Source: Inhella sp. (GTDB lineage: Bacteria > Pseudomonadota > Gammaproteobacteria > Burkholderiales > Burkholderiaceae_C). Taken from it: a stretch of 64,000 nucleotides of DNA. The notes under the pieces were generated by a model. The model was not told where the DNA came from. It did not search any database and worked only from the letters and a program-made list of their open reading frames with translations. The translations under genes were made by a program, and so were the position numbers. Shown here piece after piece: positions 23,517 through 37,908 of this stretch (its first letter is position 1; the number at the start of each line of letters is the position of its first letter). Location of the stretch: the NCBI RefSeq assembly GCF_027532025.1, contig NZ_JAPZSY010000017.1:1-64000 (forward strand). The letters run 5' to 3'.

Positions 23517-24278
<762 letters not shown>

Positions 24279-24327: not shown

Positions 24328-24576
24328 TCAGCGAATGGATTTGAGCTTCTTGCCCACACCGGACTTCTTCTTGACGGCCTTCTTCTGTGTCTTCTTGTGC
24401 GTCTTCTTGACCGTCGCCTTCTTCTTCACCGCATGGGCCTGCTTGGCCGCGGGCTTGGCGTGGATGGCGTGGGCGCCGCCTGTGCGCGATTGGGCTTGCG
24501 CGGAAACGGGGCTCAAGGCCGAGACCGACAAGGCCACGGCAAAGGACAGGAGGGTGGAGGACAGCAAACGGCTCAT
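24328..24576 (-). CDS. Small secreted lysine-rich protein of unknown function
   Basis: 82 aa: signal peptide ([10 protein letters not shown]) followed by [32 protein letters not shown]. Confidence 0.65.
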
Positions 24577-24603: not shown

Positions 24604-25344
24604 TCAGGAGCGCAGCGCGTCGGCCCGGGCCTGGGCATCGGCCAAGTCGAGCGCGCCGGTGTAGATCGCCTTGCCGCAAATGACGCCGCTGATGCCTTCG
24701 TCTTCCACCTTGCACAGGGCTTCGATATCGGCCCAGCCCTTGAGGCCGCCGCTGGCCACCACGGGAATGGTCAGGGCCTGAGCCAGCTTGACCGTGGCCT
24801 CGATGTTGATGCCGCTGAGCATCCCGTCGCGACCGATGTCGGTGTAGATCACGCCTTCGATGCCGTAGTCCTCGAACTTCTTGGCCAGGTCCACGACCTC
24901 GTGGCCAGAGAGCTTGCTCCAGCCGTCGGTGGCCACCTTGCCGTCTTTCGCGTCCAGGCCCACCCAGATGTGGCCGCCAAAGGCCGTGCAAGCGTCGCGG
25001 ATGAAGCCGGGGTTCTTCACCGCTGCCGTGCCCACGATGACGGCGCTGATGCCGTCGTCGAGGTAGCGCTCGATGGTGTCGAGGTCGCGGATGCCGCCGC
25101 CCAACTGCACCGGGATCTCATCGCCCACTTCCTTGAGGATGGCCTTTACCGCCGCCTCGTTGACCGGCTTGCCCGCGAAGGCGCCGTTCAGGTCGACGAG
25201 GTGCAAGCGACGCGCGCCCGCGTCCAGCCAGCGGCGGGCCATGGCCGCAGGGTCTTCGCCGAAGGTGGTGGAGGCGTTCATGTCGCCCTGTTGAAGGCGC
25301 ACGCAATGGCCGTCTTTGAGGTCGATGGCGGGGATCAGCAGCAT
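24604..25344 (-). CDS. hisA: Phosphoribosylformimino-5-aminoimidazole carboxamide ribotide isomerase
   Basis: [28 protein letters not shown]... Confidence 0.97.
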
Positions 25345-25438: not shown

Positions 25439-26089
25439 TCATGGATTCCAGGTTAAGAAGTTTCGGTAAAGACGGAGCCCGTCAGCGGCGCTCTTTTCCG
25501 GGTGGAATTGCGTGGCAAAAATGGTATCGCGTGCGATGGCACAGGCAAACGCGTCGCCGTAGGTGGTGGTGGCGGCCACATGATGGCTCTGGGCCGGCAC
25601 CGCATGGAAGCTGTGCACGAAGTAGAAGTGGCTGCCGCTGGCCACGCCGGCCCACACGGGGTGGGGTCGGGCGATGTCGACGCGGTTCCAGCCCATTTGC
25701 GGCACCTTGAAGCGGCTGCCGTCGGGCTGCAGGCGGCCCTCCAGCCGGAAGCGCTTCACCTCGCCCGGGAACAGGCCCAGGCCCGGGGTGTCTTGCTCTT
25801 CGCTGCGCTGCAGCAGCATCTGCATGCCCACGCACACGCCCATCAGCGGCTTGCCGTTCGCCACCTCGTCCAACACCGCCTGCTGGGCGCCGCTGTCGGC
25901 GAAGTGGGCCATGCAATCGCGCATGGCGCCTTGGCCGGGCAGCACGATGCGGTCGGCATCGCGCACCTGCTGCGGGTCGTGACCGACGACCACCCTGACG
26001 CCGGTGTCGGCCGAGGCCGCCTGCACGGCTTGGGCCACGCTGCGGAGATTGCCCATGCCGTAATCGAGCACGAGCACGGTCTTGGTCAC
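25439..26089 (-). CDS. hisH: Imidazole glycerol phosphate synthase subunit HisH (GTG start)
   Basis: [16 protein letters not shown]...GVCVGMQML...TQFHPEKS. Confidence 0.96.
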
Positions 26090-26676
26090 AAGCTGCCTTT
26101 CGTGCTGGGGATGGTGCCGGCCGCGCGCGGGTCGGGCGTGACGGCCATGCGCAGCGCGCGGGCGAAGGCCTTGAAGATCGTCTCGCACTGGTGGTGCGCG
26201 TTGTGGCCCTTCAGGTTGTCGATGTGCAGGCTCACGCCAGCGTGGTTCACGAAGCCCTGGAAGAACTCGAACACCAGCTGCGTGTCCAGTTGGCCGATGC
26301 TGCCGGCCGTGAAGGTCACGTCCATGTGCAGACCCGGGCGGCCGGAGCAATCCAGCACCACGCGGCTCAGGGCTTCGTCGAGCGGCACGTAGGCGTGGCC
26401 GTAGCGGGTGATGCCGCGCTTGTCGCCCAAGGCCTGCGCGAAAGCCTGGCCCAGCGTGATGCCCACGTCTTCCACCGTGTGGTGGCCGTCGATGTGCAGG
26501 TCGCCCTTGGCATCGATCGACAGGTCGATCAGGCCGTGGCGGGCGATCTGGTCGAGCATGTGGTCGAAGAAACCGATGCCGGTGACGAAATGCGCCTGGC
26601 CGGTGCCATCGAGGTTCAGTTCGACGCGAATCTGCGTCTCGGCGGTGTTGCGCTGGACGGTGGCGGTGCGGGTCAT
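26086..26676 (-). CDS. hisB: Imidazoleglycerol-phosphate dehydratase
   Basis: [16 protein letters not shown]...[11 protein letters not shown]...NAHHQCE. Confidence 0.97.
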
Positions 26677-27746
26677 GTCAAAGCCTGGATGAGCTGGGAA
26701 GTTTCGTCGGGCGTGCCCACGGTCAGGCGCAGGCAGTTTGTCAGCATCGGGTGCATCGCGCTCACGTTCTTCACCAAGATGCCCTTGGCCTTCAGAAGGG
26801 CAAAGGTGGCGGCGGCATCGGGGAAGCGGGCCAGCACCATGTTGGCTTGGCTGGGAAAGGGCGTGACCCCCGGCAGGGCTTGCAGCGCCGTGAACAAGCG
26901 CTCGCGCTGGGCGCGGATCTGGGCGGCTTGGCGGGCGTACTCGGCCTCGTGCTCCAGCGCGAACAGCGCGGCCTCGGTGTTGAGCACGCTGACGTTGAAG
27001 GGCGGGCGCAGTTTTTCCACCTCGGCGACCAAGGCGGCGTCGCCCATCAGGTAGCCGATGCGCACCCCGGCCAGGCCGAACTTGCTCATGGTGCGCATCA
27101 CCAGCACGTGGGGCTGGCGCAGGCGGTGCAGCGAGTCGTTCGCGGCGAAGGGCTGGTAGGCCTCGTCCATCACCACCAAGCCCGGGTTGGTGCCGTCCAG
27201 GGCCATGGCCTCCACCAGCGCGTCGATGGTGGCCGCGTCCCACAGCGTGCCCGTGGGGTTGTTGGGGTAGGCCAGCCACAGCAGCGCCGGCTTTTCGGCC
27301 GCGATGGCGGCGAGCATGGCCTCGCGGTCGAGCTGGAAGTCGTCGGCCCGGCAGGGCACGCCCACGAAGCGCACGCCCAGCAACTGCGCGCTCATCGCGT
27401 ACATGACGAAGCTGGGCAGCGGGCTCATCACGCAAGCGCCCGGCTTGGCGATGGCCTGGGTGAGCAGGCTGATCAGTTCGTCGGAGCCGTTGCCCAGCAT
27501 CAGCGCGCCCCCAGCCGGCAGTCGGGCATGGCGGGCCAGCGCGCTGCGCAGGACTTCGGTGCGCTCGGCCGGGTAGCGGTTCAGGGCCACGGCACCCAGG
27601 CGCTGGCCGAGTTCGGCCTGCAGCGCCGCGGGCAGCGGGAAGGGGTTCTCCATCACGTCCAGCTTCACCAAGCCGGCGGCGGGCTGGACGGCGTAGGCGT
27701 GGAGGGCGCGTACGTCGTCGCGGAAGACATCAAGCGGCGAATTCAT
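26673..27746 (-). CDS. hisC: Histidinol-phosphate aminotransferase
   Basis: [11 protein letters not shown]...LGNGSDELI...PNNPTGTLW...[13 protein letters not shown]. Confidence 0.96.
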
Positions 27747-28188
27747 CGAGCAGTTCCGGGCCTTGCAGGAAGGGGTTGACGATCCGCAGGCTGTCGATGG
27801 TTTGGCCGTGCTGGAGGTCTTCGGTCAGCAGGTGGGTGCAGGCCTGCTGCTGGGCGGCGGCCACCACCAGGGCGTCCCAGTAGCTCAGGCCCCAGCGGCT
27901 TTCCACGGCCCAGGCCGATTCGACCGTGGCGTGGTCCGTCTGCCAGGGCTGCCAGAGCTGGTAGCGGCGCACCTCGGCACGCGCATCGCCGGCCGACAGT
28001 GCGCTGGAAAACTTCTTGCGAGCGTTCCAGTAGAACTCGTGCAGCACCTGGTTGCTGACGCGGCCGCAGCGCTGGGCCCAGCAGGCGCGCAGCCAGGCGC
28101 GGGCGGCGTCGCGCTTGACCGGCTCGCGGTCGTCAAAGGCGTAGAGCAGGACGTTGGTGTCGACGAACACCAGAACCGGCGTGCTCAT
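27730..28188 (-). CDS. PIN-domain toxin (VapC-like)
   Basis: VFVDTNVLLYAFDDREPVKRDAA...LSYWDALVVAAA...LLTEDLQHG. Confidence 0.9.
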   Translation of the reverse strand: MSTPVLVFVDTNVLLYAFDDREPVKRDAARAWLRACWAQRCGRVSNQVLHEFYWNARKKFSSALSAGDARAEVRRYQLWQPWQTDHATVESAWAVESRWGLSYWDALVVAAAQQQACTHLLTEDLQHGQTIDSLRIVNPFLQGPELLDEFAA

Positions 28189-28418
28189 CGGGCGTTACGG
28201 TCGTAGATCTCGTCGCGGCTGAGGTAACGACCGCTGGACTCGCCGAAGCTCTTGAACTCCAAGGCCTCACGCATGGCGCGCTCGTAAGCGTCGTCATGGC
28301 GCATCTTGTCGGCCAGCATGTCGCCCACCAGGCGCGACACGCTGGTGTTGCGGCGGGCCGCTTCCATCCGCGCCCAGTCGGCGACGGCGTCTTCCATGGT
28401 GACAGTGACGTTGCGCAT
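28185..28418 (-). CDS. RHH/CopG-like antitoxin
   Basis: MRNVTVTMEDAVADWARMEAARRNTSVSRLVGDMLADKM; overlaps toxin by 4 nt. Confidence 0.85.
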   Translation of the reverse strand: MRNVTVTMEDAVADWARMEAARRNTSVSRLVGDMLADKMRHDDAYERAMREALEFKSFGESSGRYLSRDEIYDRNAR

Positions 28419-28430
28419 GGCCTGAGTATG

Positions 28431-28475
28431 CACGAAGTTCGTGGAACACGAAGTTCGTGCTGCACGATCTTCGTG
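28431..28475. promoter_or_regulatory. Triple palindromic operator array upstream of the TA module
   Basis: CACGAAGTTCGTG (28431-28443), CACGAAGTTCGTG (28447-28459), CACGATCTTCGTG (28463-28475); exact 16-bp period. Confidence 0.8.
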
Positions 28476-28525: not shown

Positions 28526-29740
28526 ATGAGCCATGCCCTGCACATCTGGGAGCGACCGCTGCCCACCTCTCTGGCCGACGCCCAAGCCGCCAAGTCCCGG
28601 TTGAGCGCTGAAAGCGGGCCCGACCCCGAGGGCTTTGCGCATTTGCGCAAGGCACTGACCAGCGCGCTGGCCGACGAGCCCGCGTTGGCCGGCATGCGCT
28701 TTGAAGGGCTGGACGATGGGTTGCTCACCGGCCCGGTGCGCAGGGTGGGCGTGCCGCAGCCATTCAGCGCCGAGCTGGTGCCGCTGTTGGTGGCCGGGGC
28801 CTTGGCCCTGGGCTTGGCGGTGTACGACGAGCAGGCCGGCGTTTGCTACCACCCACTGCGTCACAAGCTGACGCTGGATGGCCAGCAGCCGATCCGGCCG
28901 AGCGACTTGCTGCCGCGGCCCTTGAAAGCTGCTGGCGTTTGGCTGGAGGCCCAGCCAAAGCCCCAAGAGCTGGGCCCTGACGAGCAGGCCCGCGCCTGGA
29001 TCGCACAGCGGCGGCGCCTGCCGGCTTTCCAGGACGCCCTACTGGCCAAGGGCCCTCAAGGGCTCGAGCCCATGGACAGCGACAACCTGTGGATGCAGGC
29101 CCGCGTGCTGCGCCATCTGGGCCCCTGGTTCACGGCCCAAGGCTTTGTTGAACGCTCGCGCAGTGCCGAAGCCACCGAGTTCGCCCGGCTCACCGCAGGC
29201 GGCCTCCAGTCCTGGAGCCTGAGTCATTTTTTGCAGGGCAGCACGCCCAGCGGCACAGGGCCCGGCTTCAGCGTGCGCTGTGCGATCCGACCTTGGCTGC
29301 CCGAGATGCTGGACGGACCGGGCAACGCGTTCCCGCTGGTGCCGCCACCGCATGAGCCGCAGAGTTGGGGCCACGGCCGCCCCACAAGCGAGACGCGGGT
29401 GCTGGTGCGCACCCGCGCCGAACTCGAGCGCGTGTTGGCCGCCTTCAGGCCCAGCCTGGACACGGGGCTGCTGCCCCTGCTCGAGGCCTGTCGAACGCCG
29501 GAAGGGATCTTGGCGCTTGCGCGCCAGACGGGCACGCCCCACCCCTTGGTGCCCACCGCAGCACTGAAAAAACTGGCCCACTGGGAAGGCGCGCCCGATC
29601 ACCAGGCCTTGTTGCAGCAACTCCACCAGCGTGACCGCGCGCTGGGGGGCCACCCGGCCAACCTCATTTGGCCCGCTTGCAGGCTACGGGCGCTGCCCCA
29701 GGCTTTCGGCACGATGCGGCCGCGGGCGCCTGGGCCTTAG
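28526..29740 (+). CDS. Hypothetical protein, unknown function
   Basis: 404-aa ORF (MSHALHIWERPLPTSLADAQ...), coding-like composition; family not recognised. Confidence 0.7.
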   Translation: MSHALHIWERPLPTSLADAQAAKSRLSAESGPDPEGFAHLRKALTSALADEPALAGMRFEGLDDGLLTGPVRRVGVPQPFSAELVPLLVAGALALGLAVYDEQAGVCYHPLRHKLTLDGQQPIRPSDLLPRPLKAAGVWLEAQPKPQELGPDEQARAWIAQRRRLPAFQDALLAKGPQGLEPMDSDNLWMQARVLRHLGPWFTAQGFVERSRSAEATEFARLTAGGLQSWSLSHFLQGSTPSGTGPGFSVRCAIRPWLPEMLDGPGNAFPLVPPPHEPQSWGHGRPTSETRVLVRTRAELERVLAAFRPSLDTGLLPLLEACRTPEGILALARQTGTPHPLVPTAALKKLAHWEGAPDHQALLQQLHQRDRALGGHPANLIWPACRLRALPQAFGTMRPRAPGP

Positions 29741-31185
29741 GCGCCGGCCAGCAGTTCATCGACTTGGCGCAGGCGCCGCGTACCCAAGCGCCAGTAAGCG
29801 CTGAAGGAGCTGGCCACTGGCGCGTCGGGGCGGTCCAGCTCGGGGAACAGTGAATCGGCCGGCCGATCAAGCAAAGCGCGCAAGGGCTCGGGAAGGCCTG
29901 GATGGTCGAAACCCGACGTGTGAGCGCCCGCCAACCGCTCAACCAAGCTCTCAGCCGGGCCCACCCACTGCCAGGGCGTGAGGGCCTTCAGGCGCTGCGC
30001 AACGGCCGCCCAGCGCTCGGCGCGCCAAGCGATGTGTGCCCACGCCTCCAGCGGCCACAGCGCAACAACGGCATCGAAGCCGGGCGGCGGGTCGCCAAGG
30101 GCCCAGGGGTGGGCCAACCACACGCGTCGGCCGTGCTGGTCCGGGCCCCAATTGGCTTGGACGGTCGAGGCGGGGGGCGTGTGGCTCACCATGGGTTCGG
30201 CCACCGCCTCGCCGCCGCGCCCGGCTGGCAGCGGGGGCTTGCCGCCCCGGGCGCGGGCTTCGTGCACGTCGTAGCCGGTGTCCAGCACCGAGCCGGGCAC
30301 CTGCCAATCGGCGGGGGCGAACCGGGCCACGTTGTCGGCGTTGAACAGGTAAGGCTTGTGGCTGCCCGTGCCGGCCACCCACTGCCAGGAGCCGTGGTTG
30401 GGGCCCACGTCGCCGTCCATCAGCCAGCTCAACATCCAATCGGCCCCGGCGCGCCAGTGCACGCGGCGGCCATGCACCAGGTAGCTGGCCAGCCACAGGC
30501 GGGCGTGGTTGTGCAGCCAGCCGGTGGTGGCCAGGGTGCGCACGGCCTGGTCGATGACGGCCAGGCCGGTGCGGGCCTCGCGCACGTCGGCAGGCACATC
30601 CAGGAGTCTGCGCGGCAGAAGGTCAGGCTGTCGCCGAGATCCCGGGGGCGACAGGCTAGGCGCTGGCGACGCCGCGTGGCGGGCCACGTCAGGAGCCAGC
30701 AACGACGCTTGTCGCCCCCGGGGCTCGGCCCGAAGGGTGGCCCCTGGATCCGGCGCAAGCGTTGTCGCTCCTTCTTTTGGACACGCGTCCACGGCGGCGT
30801 CGCTCCGAGCCTGCGCCGGCCCAGGGGCCACGCCAGCCTGACCTTCTGCCGCGCAGACTCCTGCGGCGTACTCGCCCTCGGGCAGCGGGCCTTCGTGCCG
30901 GCTGTGCCACACGGTGTCGGGCTCGCGCATCAAGCGGTGCTGGAAGAAGCCGCGCCAGGCCAGTTCCTGCACCCAGCGGTGGTCCAGCGGCAGCGGCGTG
31001 CGGGCGTGCACCGCGGCCAAGGCCTCGCGCAGGCTCAAGGCGCCATGCACGATCCAGGGCGACAGGCCCGACACCGCGCCTTGCAGGTGGTTGCGGGTGG
31101 CGGCGTAAGCGGCAGCGTCCACGCGGGCCAGGCGTTCGCGGGCGGTGGCGGGGCTCAGGTCCAGATCCACGCTGAGCGTCATCAC
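29737..31185 (-). CDS. FAD-binding photolyase-domain protein lacking the N-terminal alpha/beta domain, with an in-frame ~88-aa insertion
   Basis: DHRWVQELAWRGFFQHRLM, WLHNHARLWLASYLVH, DGDVGPNHGSWQWVAGTGSHKPYLFNADNVARFAP. Confidence 0.88.
   Translation of the reverse strand: MMTLSVDLDLSPATARERLARVDAAAYAATRNHLQGAVSGLSPWIVHGALSLREALAAVHARTPLPLDHRWVQELAWRGFFQHRLMREPDTVWHSRHEGPLPEGEYAAGVCAAEGQAGVAPGPAQARSDAAVDACPKEGATTLAPDPGATLRAEPRGRQASLLAPDVARHAASPAPSLSPPGSRRQPDLLPRRLLDVPADVREARTGLAVIDQAVRTLATTGWLHNHARLWLASYLVHGRRVHWRAGADWMLSWLMDGDVGPNHGSWQWVAGTGSHKPYLFNADNVARFAPADWQVPGSVLDTGYDVHEARARGGKPPLPAGRGGEAVAEPMVSHTPPASTVQANWGPDQHGRRVWLAHPWALGDPPPGFDAVVALWPLEAWAHIAWRAERWAAVAQRLKALTPWQWVGPAESLVERLAGAHTSGFDHPGLPEPLRALLDRPADSLFPELDRPDAPVASSFSAYWRLGTRRLRQVDELLAGA
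30601..30863. mobile_element. Putative MITE-like element with perfect 30-bp terminal inverted repeats
   Basis: CAGGAGTCTGCGCGGCAGAAGGTCAGGCTG (30601-30630) is the exact reverse complement of 30834-30863; inner inverted repeats CCGAGATCCCGGGGGCGA/TCGCCCCCGGGGCTCGG and CAACG(A)CGCTTG/CAAGCGTTG; no internal transposase. Confidence 0.75.
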
Positions 31186-32756
31186 AGGCCACTCCCTCCG
31201 GCCTTCCAGGCTTCGGCCTGCAGGCGAATGACCTTGCGCTCCGCCTCATCCATGCGGGCCAGGTTTTTCACTTGCAGCGCCAATCGTGGGTGCTTGGCAA
31301 AGCGGGCCTCGTGGCGCAGCAGGAAGTCCCAGTACAGCGTCGTGTACGGGCAGGCGTCGGGCCCCGTGCGCTTGGCGGGCTTGAAGCGGCAGCCTTGGCA
31401 GGCCGCGCCGCCGCTCATGCGCTGGATGTACTGGCCGCTGGCGATGTAGGGCTTGCTGGCCATGGCGCCGAAGGGCGCGGGCCGGCCGTCGGGCAGCGTG
31501 CCGTCGGCGAACTGGCTCATGCCCAGGGTGTTGGGCAGTTCCACCCACTCCACGGCGTCCACGTACACCGCCAGGTACCACTCGTGCACGCGTTGCGGTC
31601 GCACGCCCAGCAGCAGCGCGTACAGGCCGGTCACCATCAGGCGCTGGATGTGGTGGGCGTAACCGTGGCGCAGCGTCTGGCCGATGGCGTCGCGCAGGCA
31701 GGCCATGCCCACCTCGCCCGTCCAGTACCAAGCCGGCAGCTCGGCCTGCGCGTCGAGCGCGTTGCGCTCGGCGTAGTCGGGCATCTGCGTCCAGTAGATG
31801 CCGCGCACGTACTCGCGCCAGCCCAAGATCTGCCGGATGAAGCCCTCGGCCGCGGCCAGGGGCACGTGGCCGGCGCGGTGCGCGGCTTCGGCCTTGGCCA
31901 CCACCTCGCGCGGGGTGATGAGCTTGAGGTTCAGGCTGCTGGCCAGCAGGCTGTGCCAGAGAAAGGGCTCGCCCGGCCACATCGCGTCTTGCCACAGGCC
32001 GAACTGCGGCAGGCGGTGCTCGATGAAGTCGTCCAGCGCCTGCAGGGCCTGCGCGCGGGTGACGGGCCAGGCGAAGTCGTCGAGCTGCCCCGGGTGGGCG
32101 GCGAAGCGATCGCGCACCAGGGCCAGCACGCCGGCCGTGCGCGCGTCGGGCGCGAAGCGCGGCGCAGGGGGCACCAAGCCCGGGCCTTGCGGCCCGAAGG
32201 CCTCGCGGTTCTCGGCATCAAAGTTCCACTGCCCACCCAGGGGTTCGCCAGCCTCGTCCAACAGCACACGGTGCCTGGCGCGCTGCTCCCGGTAGAAGTA
32301 CTCCATGCGAAGCTGCTTGCGGCCCTTCGTGTGGGCGGCGAATTCGCGCACGGTGGCAAAGAAGTGGCGGTCGTCGCGCAGGTCCAGCGGCAAGCCCAAG
32401 TCCTTCGCCACGCCGCGCAAGGCCTGCAGCACGCGCCAGTCGCCGGGGGCGGTCATCACCAAGGTTTGGGGCTGCAGCGCGCGAATGTCGCGCGCCAGGG
32501 CCTCGGCCAGGCTGGGCGCGGCCTGCGCGTCGTCCAGGTGCTGGTAGTGCAGCGGCCAGCCGCGCTCGCGCAAGGACTGCGCAAAGGCGCGCATGGCCGC
32601 CAGGAACAGCGCCGTGCGCGGCTGGCTGCTCCAGACATGCGTGCTCTCTTCGGCCACCTCGGCCATCCACACGGCGTCTTGCGCGGTGTCGAAGTCGTCG
32701 AAGGCGCTGGCGGCTTCGTCGAGCTGGTCGCCAAGAACAAGAACAAGATGCCTCAT
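31182..32756 (-). CDS. Cryptochrome/photolyase of the iron-sulfur (FeS-BCP/PhrB) class
   Basis: MRHLVLVLGDQLD..., CQGCRFKPAKRTGPDACPYTTLYWDFL cluster-ligand motif. Confidence 0.92.
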   Translation of the reverse strand: MRHLVLVLGDQLDEAASAFDDFDTAQDAVWMAEVAEESTHVWSSQPRTALFLAAMRAFAQSLRERGWPLHYQHLDDAQAAPSLAEALARDIRALQPQTLVMTAPGDWRVLQALRGVAKDLGLPLDLRDDRHFFATVREFAAHTKGRKQLRMEYFYREQRARHRVLLDEAGEPLGGQWNFDAENREAFGPQGPGLVPPAPRFAPDARTAGVLALVRDRFAAHPGQLDDFAWPVTRAQALQALDDFIEHRLPQFGLWQDAMWPGEPFLWHSLLASSLNLKLITPREVVAKAEAAHRAGHVPLAAAEGFIRQILGWREYVRGIYWTQMPDYAERNALDAQAELPAWYWTGEVGMACLRDAIGQTLRHGYAHHIQRLMVTGLYALLLGVRPQRVHEWYLAVYVDAVEWVELPNTLGMSQFADGTLPDGRPAPFGAMASKPYIASGQYIQRMSGGAACQGCRFKPAKRTGPDACPYTTLYWDFLLRHEARFAKHPRLALQVKNLARMDEAERKVIRLQAEAWKAGGSGL

Positions 32757-32953
32757 CGTGCGGCCTTGGCTTCGCGGCGGCAGCGCTCGCTGCAGAACTT
32801 CACCTCGCTCCAGGTCTTGGCCCAGGCCTTGCGCCAAGTCATCTCACGCCCGCAGTGCGCGCAGGGCTTGCTTGGCAGCGCCTGCTTGTTGCCCCGGAAC
32901 CCAGAAACGGCAGTTGACCGCTTCCCTCCGCCTGCCAGTTTTCGCTCCATCAT
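32753..32953 (-). CDS. DUF2256 zinc-ribbon-like protein
   Basis: FRGNKQALPSKPCAHCGREMTWRKAWAKTWSEVKFCSERCRREAK. Confidence 0.88.
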   Translation of the reverse strand: MMERKLAGGGKRSTAVSGFRGNKQALPSKPCAHCGREMTWRKAWAKTWSEVKFCSERCRREAKAAR

Positions 32954-33135
32954 CGGATTGAGCCCACGGCGCTGTTCACCGCTTGGGCGACACCGCTACA
33001 CAGCCGATTGCACCGCGCTGCAGCACGCTGGCGGCGTTGCTCGTCCTTGCGGGCAAGAGCCCGCGGCGTCCTCGCGCCTTGCCAGCGCACCGCATCACGG
33101 CGCACTCGGCCGTGTCCAACTGCCGCTTCTGGGTT
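32898..33135. repeat. 19-bp near-perfect inverted repeat pair flanking the photolyase-DUF2256 spacer
   Basis: AACCCAGAAACGGCAGTTG (32898-32916) vs CAACTGCCGCTTCTGGGTT (33117-33135), 18/19 complementary. Confidence 0.6.
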
Positions 33136-33140
33136 GAAGC

Positions 33141-34721
33141 TCAAAACAACTCTCCCTGGGGCGAAGGGGGTGACGGCGTCGCCGGTGCCGGCGCTGGTTT
33201 GGCGCGCCGTGATTTCGTCGTGCTCGGCAGCCCGCTCTTGCGCGAGCCGTGCTTCTCTTGCACGCCATCGGCCTGCGCGCGGGCCTCGGGCCGGCGGCGC
33301 TCGGTCCACATCGCGTCCTTGGCCGCGCGGATGGCGCTGCGCTCGTCCACCAGCGGTGCCGGGTAGTGCGTGCCGATGACGCAGCCGCTGGCCCGCTGCG
33401 TGGCCGCATCCATGCGCCAGGGCGTGGCCAAGTGAGGCAACGGCACGCCGGCCAGCTCGGGCACCCAGCGGCGGATGAACACCCCGTCGGGGTCTTGGTC
33501 CAGCGCCTGCTTGGTGGGCGAGTAAATGCGCAGGGTGTTGATGCCCGTGGTGCCCGATTGCATCTGCATCTGGCTCCAGTGGATGCCGGCTTCGAAGTCC
33601 AGGAACTGCCGCGCCAGGTGCAGGCCCGTGGGCCGCCAGTGCAGCCACAGCGGGTAGCTCGCCACGCTGACCAGCATGGCGCGCATGCGGAAGTTCAGCC
33701 AGCCGGTGGCCTTGAGGCTGCGCATGCAGGCGTCCACCATCGGCCAGCCGGTGTGGCCCGTGGCCCAGGCGTGGAAGCGGGCCTGGTCGGACTCGGTGAA
33801 GGGCGCGGTGTCGCCCGGGCGCAGGCCGTCGAAGGCCGGCACGAAGGCGCGGCGCTCGATGGCCGGCTCGTCCTCCAGCTTCTGCATGAAGTGGCAGTGC
33901 CAGCGCAGGCGCCCGGCAAAGCCGCGCAGCGCGTAAGCCCAACTGCGCTCGCCCAAAGCCTGCGCCTCGGCGATGCGCGCCTCGGTGGCCTGGTGTGCGC
34001 GGCGCAGGCTCAGGGTGCCCCAGGCCAGGTGGGGCGAGAGGCGGCTGCAGCCGGCTTCGGCGCTCAGCGGGCTGCTCATCGCGCGACGGTAGTCGTGGCC
34101 GCGGCGGGTCAGGAAGTCGTCCAGCGTGGCCAGCGCGGCGCGCTCGCCCCCCACCTGGCCGGCTCGCGCGTCCGGCGCCACGCCCAGGGCCTCGGGCGTG
34201 GGCAGCGGCTCGGTGGGGAAGTCGCCTGCGGGCGACCAACCATCGGGCACCGGCGCCTCGTCGGCGTCCATGCGCGCCTGCCATTGTCCGGCCCAGCCGT
34301 TGCGGCTGCGCAGGCGCCGCACCACGCCGTGCTGCGGCAGCTCGGTCCACGCGACCCCGGCCTGTCGGCACCACGCCGCCACGGCCAGGTCGCGCGCGTA
34401 GGTCCAACCCGGCCCGGTTTCTTCGTGGCTCAGCAAGTGCGTCACCCCCAGCTCGCGCTGCAGCGCGGCCAGGCCCTCCACCGCCGGCGCCACGCGCACG
34501 TGCAGCGGCAGGCCGCGCCGATGCAGCCGCAAGCGCAGGCCCTGCAAGCTTTGCAGCACGAAACGCAGGTGCTGGGGGTCGAACTCCGGCGAGGCCAACC
34601 ATGCGGGCTCGATGAAGAACACCGCCGCCGTGCGCTCGAAGGCGGCCGCCCGCGCCAGCGGGGCGTGGTCGTGCAAGCGCAGGTCGCGCTTCAGCCAAAC
34701 GAGTGCGGTGGACGCGGCCAT
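33141..34721 (-). CDS. Deoxyribodipyrimidine photolyase/cryptochrome-family protein with basic C-terminal tail
   Basis: LVWLKRDLRLHDHAPL...HEETGPGWTYARD...SRLSPHLAWGTLSLR...WPMVDACMRSLKATGWLNFRMRAML. Confidence 0.9.
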   Translation of the reverse strand: MAASTALVWLKRDLRLHDHAPLARAAAFERTAAVFFIEPAWLASPEFDPQHLRFVLQSLQGLRLRLHRRGLPLHVRVAPAVEGLAALQRELGVTHLLSHEETGPGWTYARDLAVAAWCRQAGVAWTELPQHGVVRRLRSRNGWAGQWQARMDADEAPVPDGWSPAGDFPTEPLPTPEALGVAPDARAGQVGGERAALATLDDFLTRRGHDYRRAMSSPLSAEAGCSRLSPHLAWGTLSLRRAHQATEARIAEAQALGERSWAYALRGFAGRLRWHCHFMQKLEDEPAIERRAFVPAFDGLRPGDTAPFTESDQARFHAWATGHTGWPMVDACMRSLKATGWLNFRMRAMLVSVASYPLWLHWRPTGLHLARQFLDFEAGIHWSQMQMQSGTTGINTLRIYSPTKQALDQDPDGVFIRRWVPELAGVPLPHLATPWRMDAATQRASGCVIGTHYPAPLVDERSAIRAAKDAMWTERRRPEARAQADGVQEKHGSRKSGLPSTTKSRRAKPAPAPATPSPPSPQGELF

Positions 34722-35828: not shown

Positions 35829-37145
35829 TCATCCGCCGCTGGCGTCCACCCGCATCGCCGCCGACCGGGCATGCGCCTGCAGGCCCTCGCCCTGCGCCAG
35901 CGTGTCGGCCACCGGCCCCAGCACCTGGGCGCCGCGGTGGCTGATGTCGATCAGGCTGCTGCGCTTGACAAAGTCGTACACGCCCAGGGGCGAGCTGAAG
36001 CGGGCGGTGCCACTGGTGGGCAGCACGTGGTTGGGGCCGGCGCAGTAGTCGCCCAAGGACTCCGAGGCGTAGGTGCCCAGGAAGATGGCGCCGGCGTGCT
36101 TCAGGTGCGGCAGCCACTGGCGCGGGGCCGTGCTGCTCACCTCCAAGTGCTCGGGCGCGATGCGGTTGCTGACCGCGCAGGCCTCTTCCATGCTGCGCGT
36201 GTGGATCAGGCCGCCGCGGCCCTCCAGGCTGGCGCGGATGACGGCGGCGCGCGGCATGTCGGGCAGCAGGCGGTTCATCGAGGCCTCGACGGCGTCGAGG
36301 TAGGCGGCGTCGGGGCACAGCAGGATGCTTTGCGCCAGCTCGTCGTGCTCGGCCTGGCTGAACAGGTCCATGGCCACCCAGTCGGGCGGCGCGCTGCCGT
36401 CGGCCAGCACCAGGATCTCGCTCGGGCCGGCGATCATGTCGATGCCCACCTGCCCGAACACGCGGCGCTTGGCCGCGGCCACGTAGGCGTTGCCGGGGCC
36501 GGTGATCTTGTCCACGCGCGGGATGGTGGCCGTGCCGTAGGCCAGGGCGGCCACGGCCTGCGCGCCGCCAATCGTGAAGACCTGGGCCACGCCGGCCAGG
36601 TGCGCGGCGGCCAGCACCAGGGCGTTCTTTTCTCCGCGGGGCGTGGGCACGACCATGACGATCTGGCCCACGCCGGCCACCTGCGCGGGGATGGCGTTCA
36701 TCAGCACCGAGCTGGGGTAGGCCGCTTTGCCACCGGGCACGTACAGGCCCACGCGGTCCAACGGGGTGACCTGCTGGCCCAGGCGGTTGCCGTCTTCGTC
36801 CTCGAACTCGAAGCCTTGGCAGGTGACCTCGAACTGGCGCTGGTGGTAGCGGCGCACGCGCTCGGCGGCCACCTGCAGGGCCTGGCGCTGCACCTCGGGC
36901 AGGCCGTCGAAGGCGGCCTTCAGCTCGGCCGGGGGGATGGCCAAGTCGGCCACCGAGGCGGCTTGCACGCCGTCGAACTTGTGCGTCAGCGCCAACACCG
37001 TGGCGTCGCCGTCGCGGCGCACGTCGGCAATGATTTTCGCGACCGTGGTCTCGATGCCGGCGTCGGTCTCCTCGCTCCAATGCAGCAGCTGCTCGAGCTC
37101 GGCGTCGAACGTGGCGGCGGTGGTGGCGAGGCGGCGGATCTTCAT
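35829..37145 (-). CDS. hisD: Histidinol dehydrogenase
   Basis: [20 protein letters not shown]...[14 protein letters not shown]...[10 protein letters not shown]...[12 protein letters not shown]. Confidence 0.97.
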
Positions 37146-37149
37146 GACT

Positions 37150-37836
37150 TCAGGCGTTGGCAGTGGAGGCAGCGAGGGCGCGGCGGAAGGCGTCCATCAG
37201 CGGTTGCAGGCGCGCGCGCTTGAGCTTGGCGGCGCCGGGGTTGACGACGAGGTGGGCCGACACGGGGAGGATGTCTTCGACCTCGACGAGGTGGTTGGCC
37301 TTGAGCGTGCTGCCGGTGCTGACCAGGTCGACGATGGCGTCGGCCAGGCCGGTCAGCGGGGCGAGCTCCATCGAGCCGTAGAGCTTGATGAGGTCGACGT
37401 GCACGCCTTTGTCGGCGAAGTGCTGGCGGGCCAACTGGGTGTACTTGGTGGCCACGCGGATGCGCGCGCCTTGGCGCACGGCGGCGGCGTAGTCGAAGTC
37501 GGCGCGGGTGGCCACGCTCAGGCGGCAGCGGGCCAGCCGCAAGTCGATGGGGCGCAGCAGCGAAGCGCCGCCCTCCCCGCCGCCGTAGGGCCCCAGCTCG
37601 TGCTCCAGCACCACGTCCAAGCCGGCCACGCCGACGTCGGCGCCGCCGAACTGCACGTAGGTCGGCACGTCGCTGGCGCGCACCAGCACCACGCGCACGT
37701 CGGGCTGGTTGGTGGGCAGGATGAGCTTGCGCGTCTTCTCGGGGTCTTCCAAGACCTCGATGCCCGCCGCACGCAGCAGCGGCAGCGTGTCGTCAAAGAT
37801 GCGGCCCTTGCTCAGGGCCAATGTCAATTGAGTCAT
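37150..37836 (-). CDS. hisG: ATP phosphoribosyltransferase (short form)
   Basis: [21 protein letters not shown]...[15 protein letters not shown]...[17 protein letters not shown]. Confidence 0.96.
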
Positions 37837-37908
37837 GGGGTGAACCAGCAATCCAGGCAGTCAGCCCCCAAGCGGCCACCGCGGAACCGGCTTGGCCGGG
37901 CCGCCAGC

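Follow-up and report, generated by a model that had tools for sequence, protein, structure and literature searches.

A VapBC-like toxin-antitoxin pair overlaps hisC at the head of a histidine half-operon in Inhella sp. and recurs at this site in many relatives

The window, which is the whole stretch of DNA analyzed (64,000 nucleotides from Inhella sp.), carries on its minus strand a two-gene toxin-antitoxin (TA) module followed by the genes of a hisCBHAF half-operon. In the direction of reading, these genes are as follows.

28185 to 28418, minus strand: putative antitoxin, 77 aa, ATG at 28418, assigned from the ORF and its place before the PIN toxin
27730 to 28188, minus strand: PIN-domain (VapC-like) toxin, 152 aa, assigned by PF01850, AlphaFold2, and Foldseek
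26673 to 27746, minus strand: hisC, histidinol-phosphate transaminase, assigned by TIGR01141
26086 to 26676, minus strand: hisB, imidazoleglycerol-phosphate dehydratase type, assigned from the ORF and an order conserved in relatives
25439 to 26089, minus strand: putative hisH, an ORF with a GTG start
24604 to 25344, minus strand: putative hisA, an ORF
23517 to 24278, minus strand: hisF, assigned by PF00977 (E 2.9e-88)

The names hisH and hisA are those that, from sequence knowledge, we take to fit these two ORFs. Overlaps were found at all four junctions from the antitoxin through hisH. The antitoxin and toxin genes share 4 nt (ATGA), the toxin stop codon ends at 27730 inside hisC, whose ATG starts from 27746 (a 17-nt overlap), and the hisC/hisB and hisB/hisH junctions share 4 nt each (a common ATGA and a common GTGA, respectively). 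The coordinates and the last three overlaps had been given correctly in the earlier note. Its description of a single run from antitoxin to hisF holds for overlapping genes as far as hisH; beyond that point, a 94-nt gap separates hisH from hisA, and an 82-aa ORF precedes hisF. This ORF (24328-24576, same strand, in the hisA/hisF interval) encodes a lysine-rich product with a signal-like N terminus. The hisC product scored 295.2 bits against TIGR01141 (cut-off 276.55), and the TA-adjacent gene is the only close copy of hisC in the genome. Two PRA-CH (hisI) genes were located, both on other contigs (C110:14111-14347 and C140:97207-97434), and this his operon therefore does not end in hisI.

Upstream of the TA genes, the neighborhood contains the following.

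28529 to 29740, plus strand: divergent gene, 403 aa, between a photolyase cluster and the TA genes
35829 to 37145, minus strand: hisD, PF00815, the single hisD of the genome, ~7.4 kb upstream of the TA genes
37150 to 37851, minus strand: hisG, PF01634, before hisD

The start codons of the antitoxin and the divergent gene are separated by 110 bp. The 403-aa product had no Pfam or NCBIfam match and no clear homologue among 30 relatives, and the gene is absent from this site in an I. crocodyli-like genome (G001). The photolyase cluster (29737-34721; DNA photolyase, DUF2256, DPRP, and FAD_binding_7) is inserted between hisD and the TA genes. Given that hisG and hisD lie 7.4 kb off, behind this cluster and the divergent gene, the promoter for hisCBHAF is expected either before or inside the TA genes; read-through from hisGD is unlikely here because the divergent gene would be crossed antisense. 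The TA promoter is the more likely source of hisCBHAF expression, ahead of any promoter concealed within the TA genes themselves.

The distribution of the arrangement was assessed in 401 genomes of the same family, a close toxin homologue being defined as a match at E ≤ 2.3e-28. Such a homologue was present in 119 genomes, comprising the window genome and at least 118 relatives, and in every one of the 119 it immediately precedes hisC, as established from fetched sequence for 103 and from coordinates for 16, a recurrence beyond chance. The linked loci cover about 55 genus groups, with toxin identities of 41-97%, the nearest named relative found being Inhella crocodyli (97%). Neither the weaker toxin matches fetched within the family (L279-L282 and L306) nor the close homologues from the order's other families (L267-L278) adjoin hisC. 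Most of 40 TA-free hisC loci showed the order murA-hisG-hisD-hisC with hisD and hisC adjacent, and the TA pair is thus seated between hisD and hisC of the ancestral order. In TA-free genomes with a gap between hisD and hisC, visual inspection of the listed ORFs showed no evident TA module of another kind.

Phylogenetic analysis placed the linked toxins in one clade relative to 14 unlinked relatives (SH-aLRT 95), a result that is supportive and not independent proof because the unlinked set consists of more distant matches. A recent mobile insertion is ruled out by the depth of the single clade to which the linked toxins belong and by the one site that they share. The distance correlation between toxin and hisB is modest (0.29; 0.40 for hisC and hisB), and the locus may therefore have undergone some lateral exchange. 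The single clade under purifying selection is most simply explained by one old insertion passed down at a fixed site; the distribution of the pair on the hisB tree is best fitted by one insertion and many subsequent losses, or else by exchange on a local scale. The TA genes had been expected in the earlier note to be hard to lose once joined to histidine synthesis; this is contradicted by the ~70% of family genomes without a close homologue and by the ~25 gains or losses needed to explain TA presence on the hisB tree. At L066, L087, L099, L105, L183, and L243, the hisC gene that follows the TA pair is 32-36% identical to the usual one and the TA genes and hisB are orthologous; an in situ replacement of hisC seems to have occurred at these loci.

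The same patchy presence is consistent with a reading in which an ordinary selfish TA module occupies a tolerated site, hisC owes most of its expression to read-through or to an internal promoter, and TA autoregulation is irrelevant to histidine. Against this reading stands the retention of one fixed site across so many genus groups despite the wide divergence of the toxins. The promoter evidence discussed below bears on it further.

Turning to the proteins, the toxin matched PF01850 with an E value of 3.6e-13 (50.6 bits, over a cut-off of 23.6), and its AlphaFold2 model had a mean pLDDT of 95. A Foldseek search with this model returned PcrIIC1 (PDB 8wmm) as the best match (TM 0.74), followed by VapC toxins, and a profile search against solved structures returned PcrIIC1 alone (E 1.8e-11). 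Through PcrIIC1, a Cas9 partner, this PIN subfamily is linked to a non-toxin role elsewhere. The PIN active-site acids are present in the window toxin as D10, E51, and D105, together with E123/D124. The N terminus of the antitoxin is ribbon-helix-helix (RHH)-like (MRNVTVTMEDAVADWARMEAARRNTSVSRLVG), and its profile matches are weak: DUF6364 matched 28 of 29 members but fell below the cut-off for the window protein, RHH_1 matched weakly in 2, and FitA-like matches were weak too. PADLOC gave no match. Both genes have dN/dS values of 0.05-0.36, similar to those of hisC and hisB and indicative of purifying selection; together with conservation across relatives, this rules out a chance overlap or a miscalled ORF.

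Eleven of the 103 linked toxins lack at least one of the three acids (L140 lacks two) with frame and position kept, and the nearest solved structure by both sequence and fold is a Cas9 partner, not a VapC. Such features speak for a domesticated regulator, i.e. a PIN protein whose function as a toxin is gone or fading and which is retained as a co-repressor and as the upstream cistron required for hisC translation. However, the acids at positions 10, 51 (E/D), and 105 are all retained in 92 of the 103, the window toxin included, and the toxin gene is under purifying selection. Domestication is considered very unlikely.

Ahead of the antitoxin lies a palindromic tandem operator, which, like the divergent plus-strand gene, had been missed in the earlier note.

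28463 to 28475, minus strand: 13-bp palindrome, first box
28447 to 28459, minus strand: 13-bp palindrome, second box
28431 to 28443, minus strand: 13-bp palindrome, last box
28425 to 28430, minus strand: -10-like hexamer CATACT (consensus match), abutting the last box, with 6 nt between it and the antitoxin ATG

The three boxes are spaced at 16 bp and read on the plus strand CACGAAGTTCGTG, CACGAAGTTCGTG, and CACGATCTTCGTG, starting at 28431, 28447, and 28463, respectively. Across the 103 linked loci, at least two CACGAANTTCGTG palindromes were found within 130 bp of the antitoxin start in 102 promoters, and the spacing of neighboring boxes was 16 bp in 122 of 123 cases. In most of 70 two-box promoters, the last box is succeeded by a TAAACT-like hexamer whose end mostly lies 6-9 nt ahead of the start codon. 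The antitoxin mRNA is accordingly predicted to be leaderless, and the window promoter, with its CATACT, is laid out in the same way. Promoter calls throughout are matches to consensus; for the window, the -35 is poor and a standard promoter scan gave no site. The boxes of this putative operator are presumably recognized by the antitoxin, either by itself or in combination with the toxin, and their 16-bp tandem arrangement would permit conditional cooperativity.

No box was found within 130 bp before hisC in any of 40 TA-free or 80 TA-bearing genomes. The comparison of hisC upstream regions that the earlier note had proposed as a check thereby came out in its favor, with TA genes directly upstream in all 119 genomes and boxes of hisC's own in none of the 80. 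Three perfect boxes occur in the 3.5-Mb genome, two at this operator and the third inside a cheD-like coding sequence; a his-specific regulon of boxes is thus ruled out. The unlinked homologues (L267-L276 and L242-L259) come from other Burkholderiales families and from Acidobacteriota, Gemmatimonadota, and Actinomycetota bins, and several of them carry the same boxes. Since boxes also precede several unlinked relatives in other taxa, the motif was brought in by the TA family, not by his, a point that favors the selfish-module reading.

The promoter-like score of the region upstream of the antitoxin exceeded that of every toxin-internal tile in 71 of the 103 linked loci, tied in 20, and was lower in 12. 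The lower scores of internal tiles in most genomes speak against the selfish-module reading; given the ties and the 12 cases in which an internal tile won, an internal promoter is possible and some hisC genes could use one. From toxin stop to hisC start, the median distance was -4 nt, with overlap in 44 of 80 genomes and a distance within 60 nt in 76, start codons being chosen by a heuristic. Judged from anatomy and comparison, the coupling of the TA genes to hisC is old and conserved, and the ATGA coupling likewise weighs against mere hitchhiking.

In 53 of 80 TA genomes, hisD is not adjacent to the TA genes, and in 26 of these 53 a gene on the opposite strand lies next to the antitoxin (by a GC3 heuristic). 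With hisD away and an opposite-strand neighbor, as is also the case in the window, the hisC half-operon of split genomes has to rely on a promoter that lies within the TA genes or ahead of them, and the divergent or unrelated upstream gene in many genomes leaves few other promoters on which a selfish module could depend. By contrast, hisD directly precedes the TA genes in the other 27 of 80, where read-through from hisG could dominate, as the selfish-module reading would have it. On this balance, we regard that reading as possible but rather unlikely. Separation of hisD from hisC was more frequent with the TA genes (53/80) than without them (8/40), with a raw Fisher value of 2e-6 that is not phylogenetically independent. 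The proposal that TA presence permits operon splitting was rejected, the independent pairs giving no significant support despite this raw value.

TA modules are autoregulated. The overlaps, the lack of any gap, and a conserved operator and promoter only before the antitoxin suggest one TA-led transcription unit as the simplest and best-supported reading. Here, a type II VapBC-like pair (RHH-like antitoxin and PIN toxin) would have entered the hisD-hisC interval once in the ancestry of the family and been inherited at that site, with losses. The antitoxin, alone or with the toxin, would bind two or three palindromic promoter boxes; hisC would be the third gene of the TA transcript, translationally coupled to the toxin through overlapping start and stop codons, and in this genome hisCBHAF would be expressed from the TA promoter. 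Binding, repression, co-transcription, and an effect on histidine supply are what we infer from sequence, and TA autoregulation may accordingly limit hisC mRNA. Taken as a whole, the account of a single ancestral insertion with hisCBHAF as the tail of the TA operon, set at least in part by TA autorepression, is considered somewhat probable. A more elaborate scheme, a dedicated histidine-supply switch, is improbable: antitoxin turnover driven by amino acid starvation would free the PIN RNase and derepress hisCBHAF, and the target of the RNase (e.g. a tRNA) would close the loop. If true, growth arrest and histidine synthesis would be set by one repressor.

Chromosomal TA modules are usually gained and lost over time, and what they do is a matter of dispute. 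In about 55 genus groups, the module described here has retained its site, its operator, and the translational link to a biosynthetic gene, which suggests a tie of very long standing between essential amino acid synthesis and a self-regulating toxin system. The locus thus lets one ask in a natural setting, with TA-free relatives for comparison, if control of an essential pathway can pass to a TA repressor. No published description of TA genes leading a his operon was found in the open literature searched, subscription papers lying outside this scope.

The pair resembles type II VapBC modules in having the antitoxin first, a 4-nt overlap with the toxin gene, a PIN fold with its acids, and a palindromic operator before the antitoxin. 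Unlike VapBC, it is followed by hisC and the rest of the his half-operon as further cistrons, and its antitoxin stays below the cut-off of every named Pfam and NCBIfam profile. The closest solved structure, PcrIIC1, differs in having been solved in complex with a Cas9. In proteobacterial his operons (murA-hisG-hisD-hisC-hisB...), the gene order around the insertion is the same, and those of the sampled TA-free genomes have no TA genes between hisD and hisC. A tested TA module of a related betaproteobacterium, VapBC of Acidovorax citrulli (Aave_0579/0580), shares the PIN toxin, the antitoxin-toxin order, and overlapping genes (PMC4701950). The parts of that report consulted describe an AbrB-type antitoxin, a closest relationship to Xanthomonas, and occurrence in group II strains only (PMC4701950). 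Its AbrB antitoxin rules out identity with the present pair, and, unlike the pair described here, linkage to his is not mentioned in those parts (PMC4701950).
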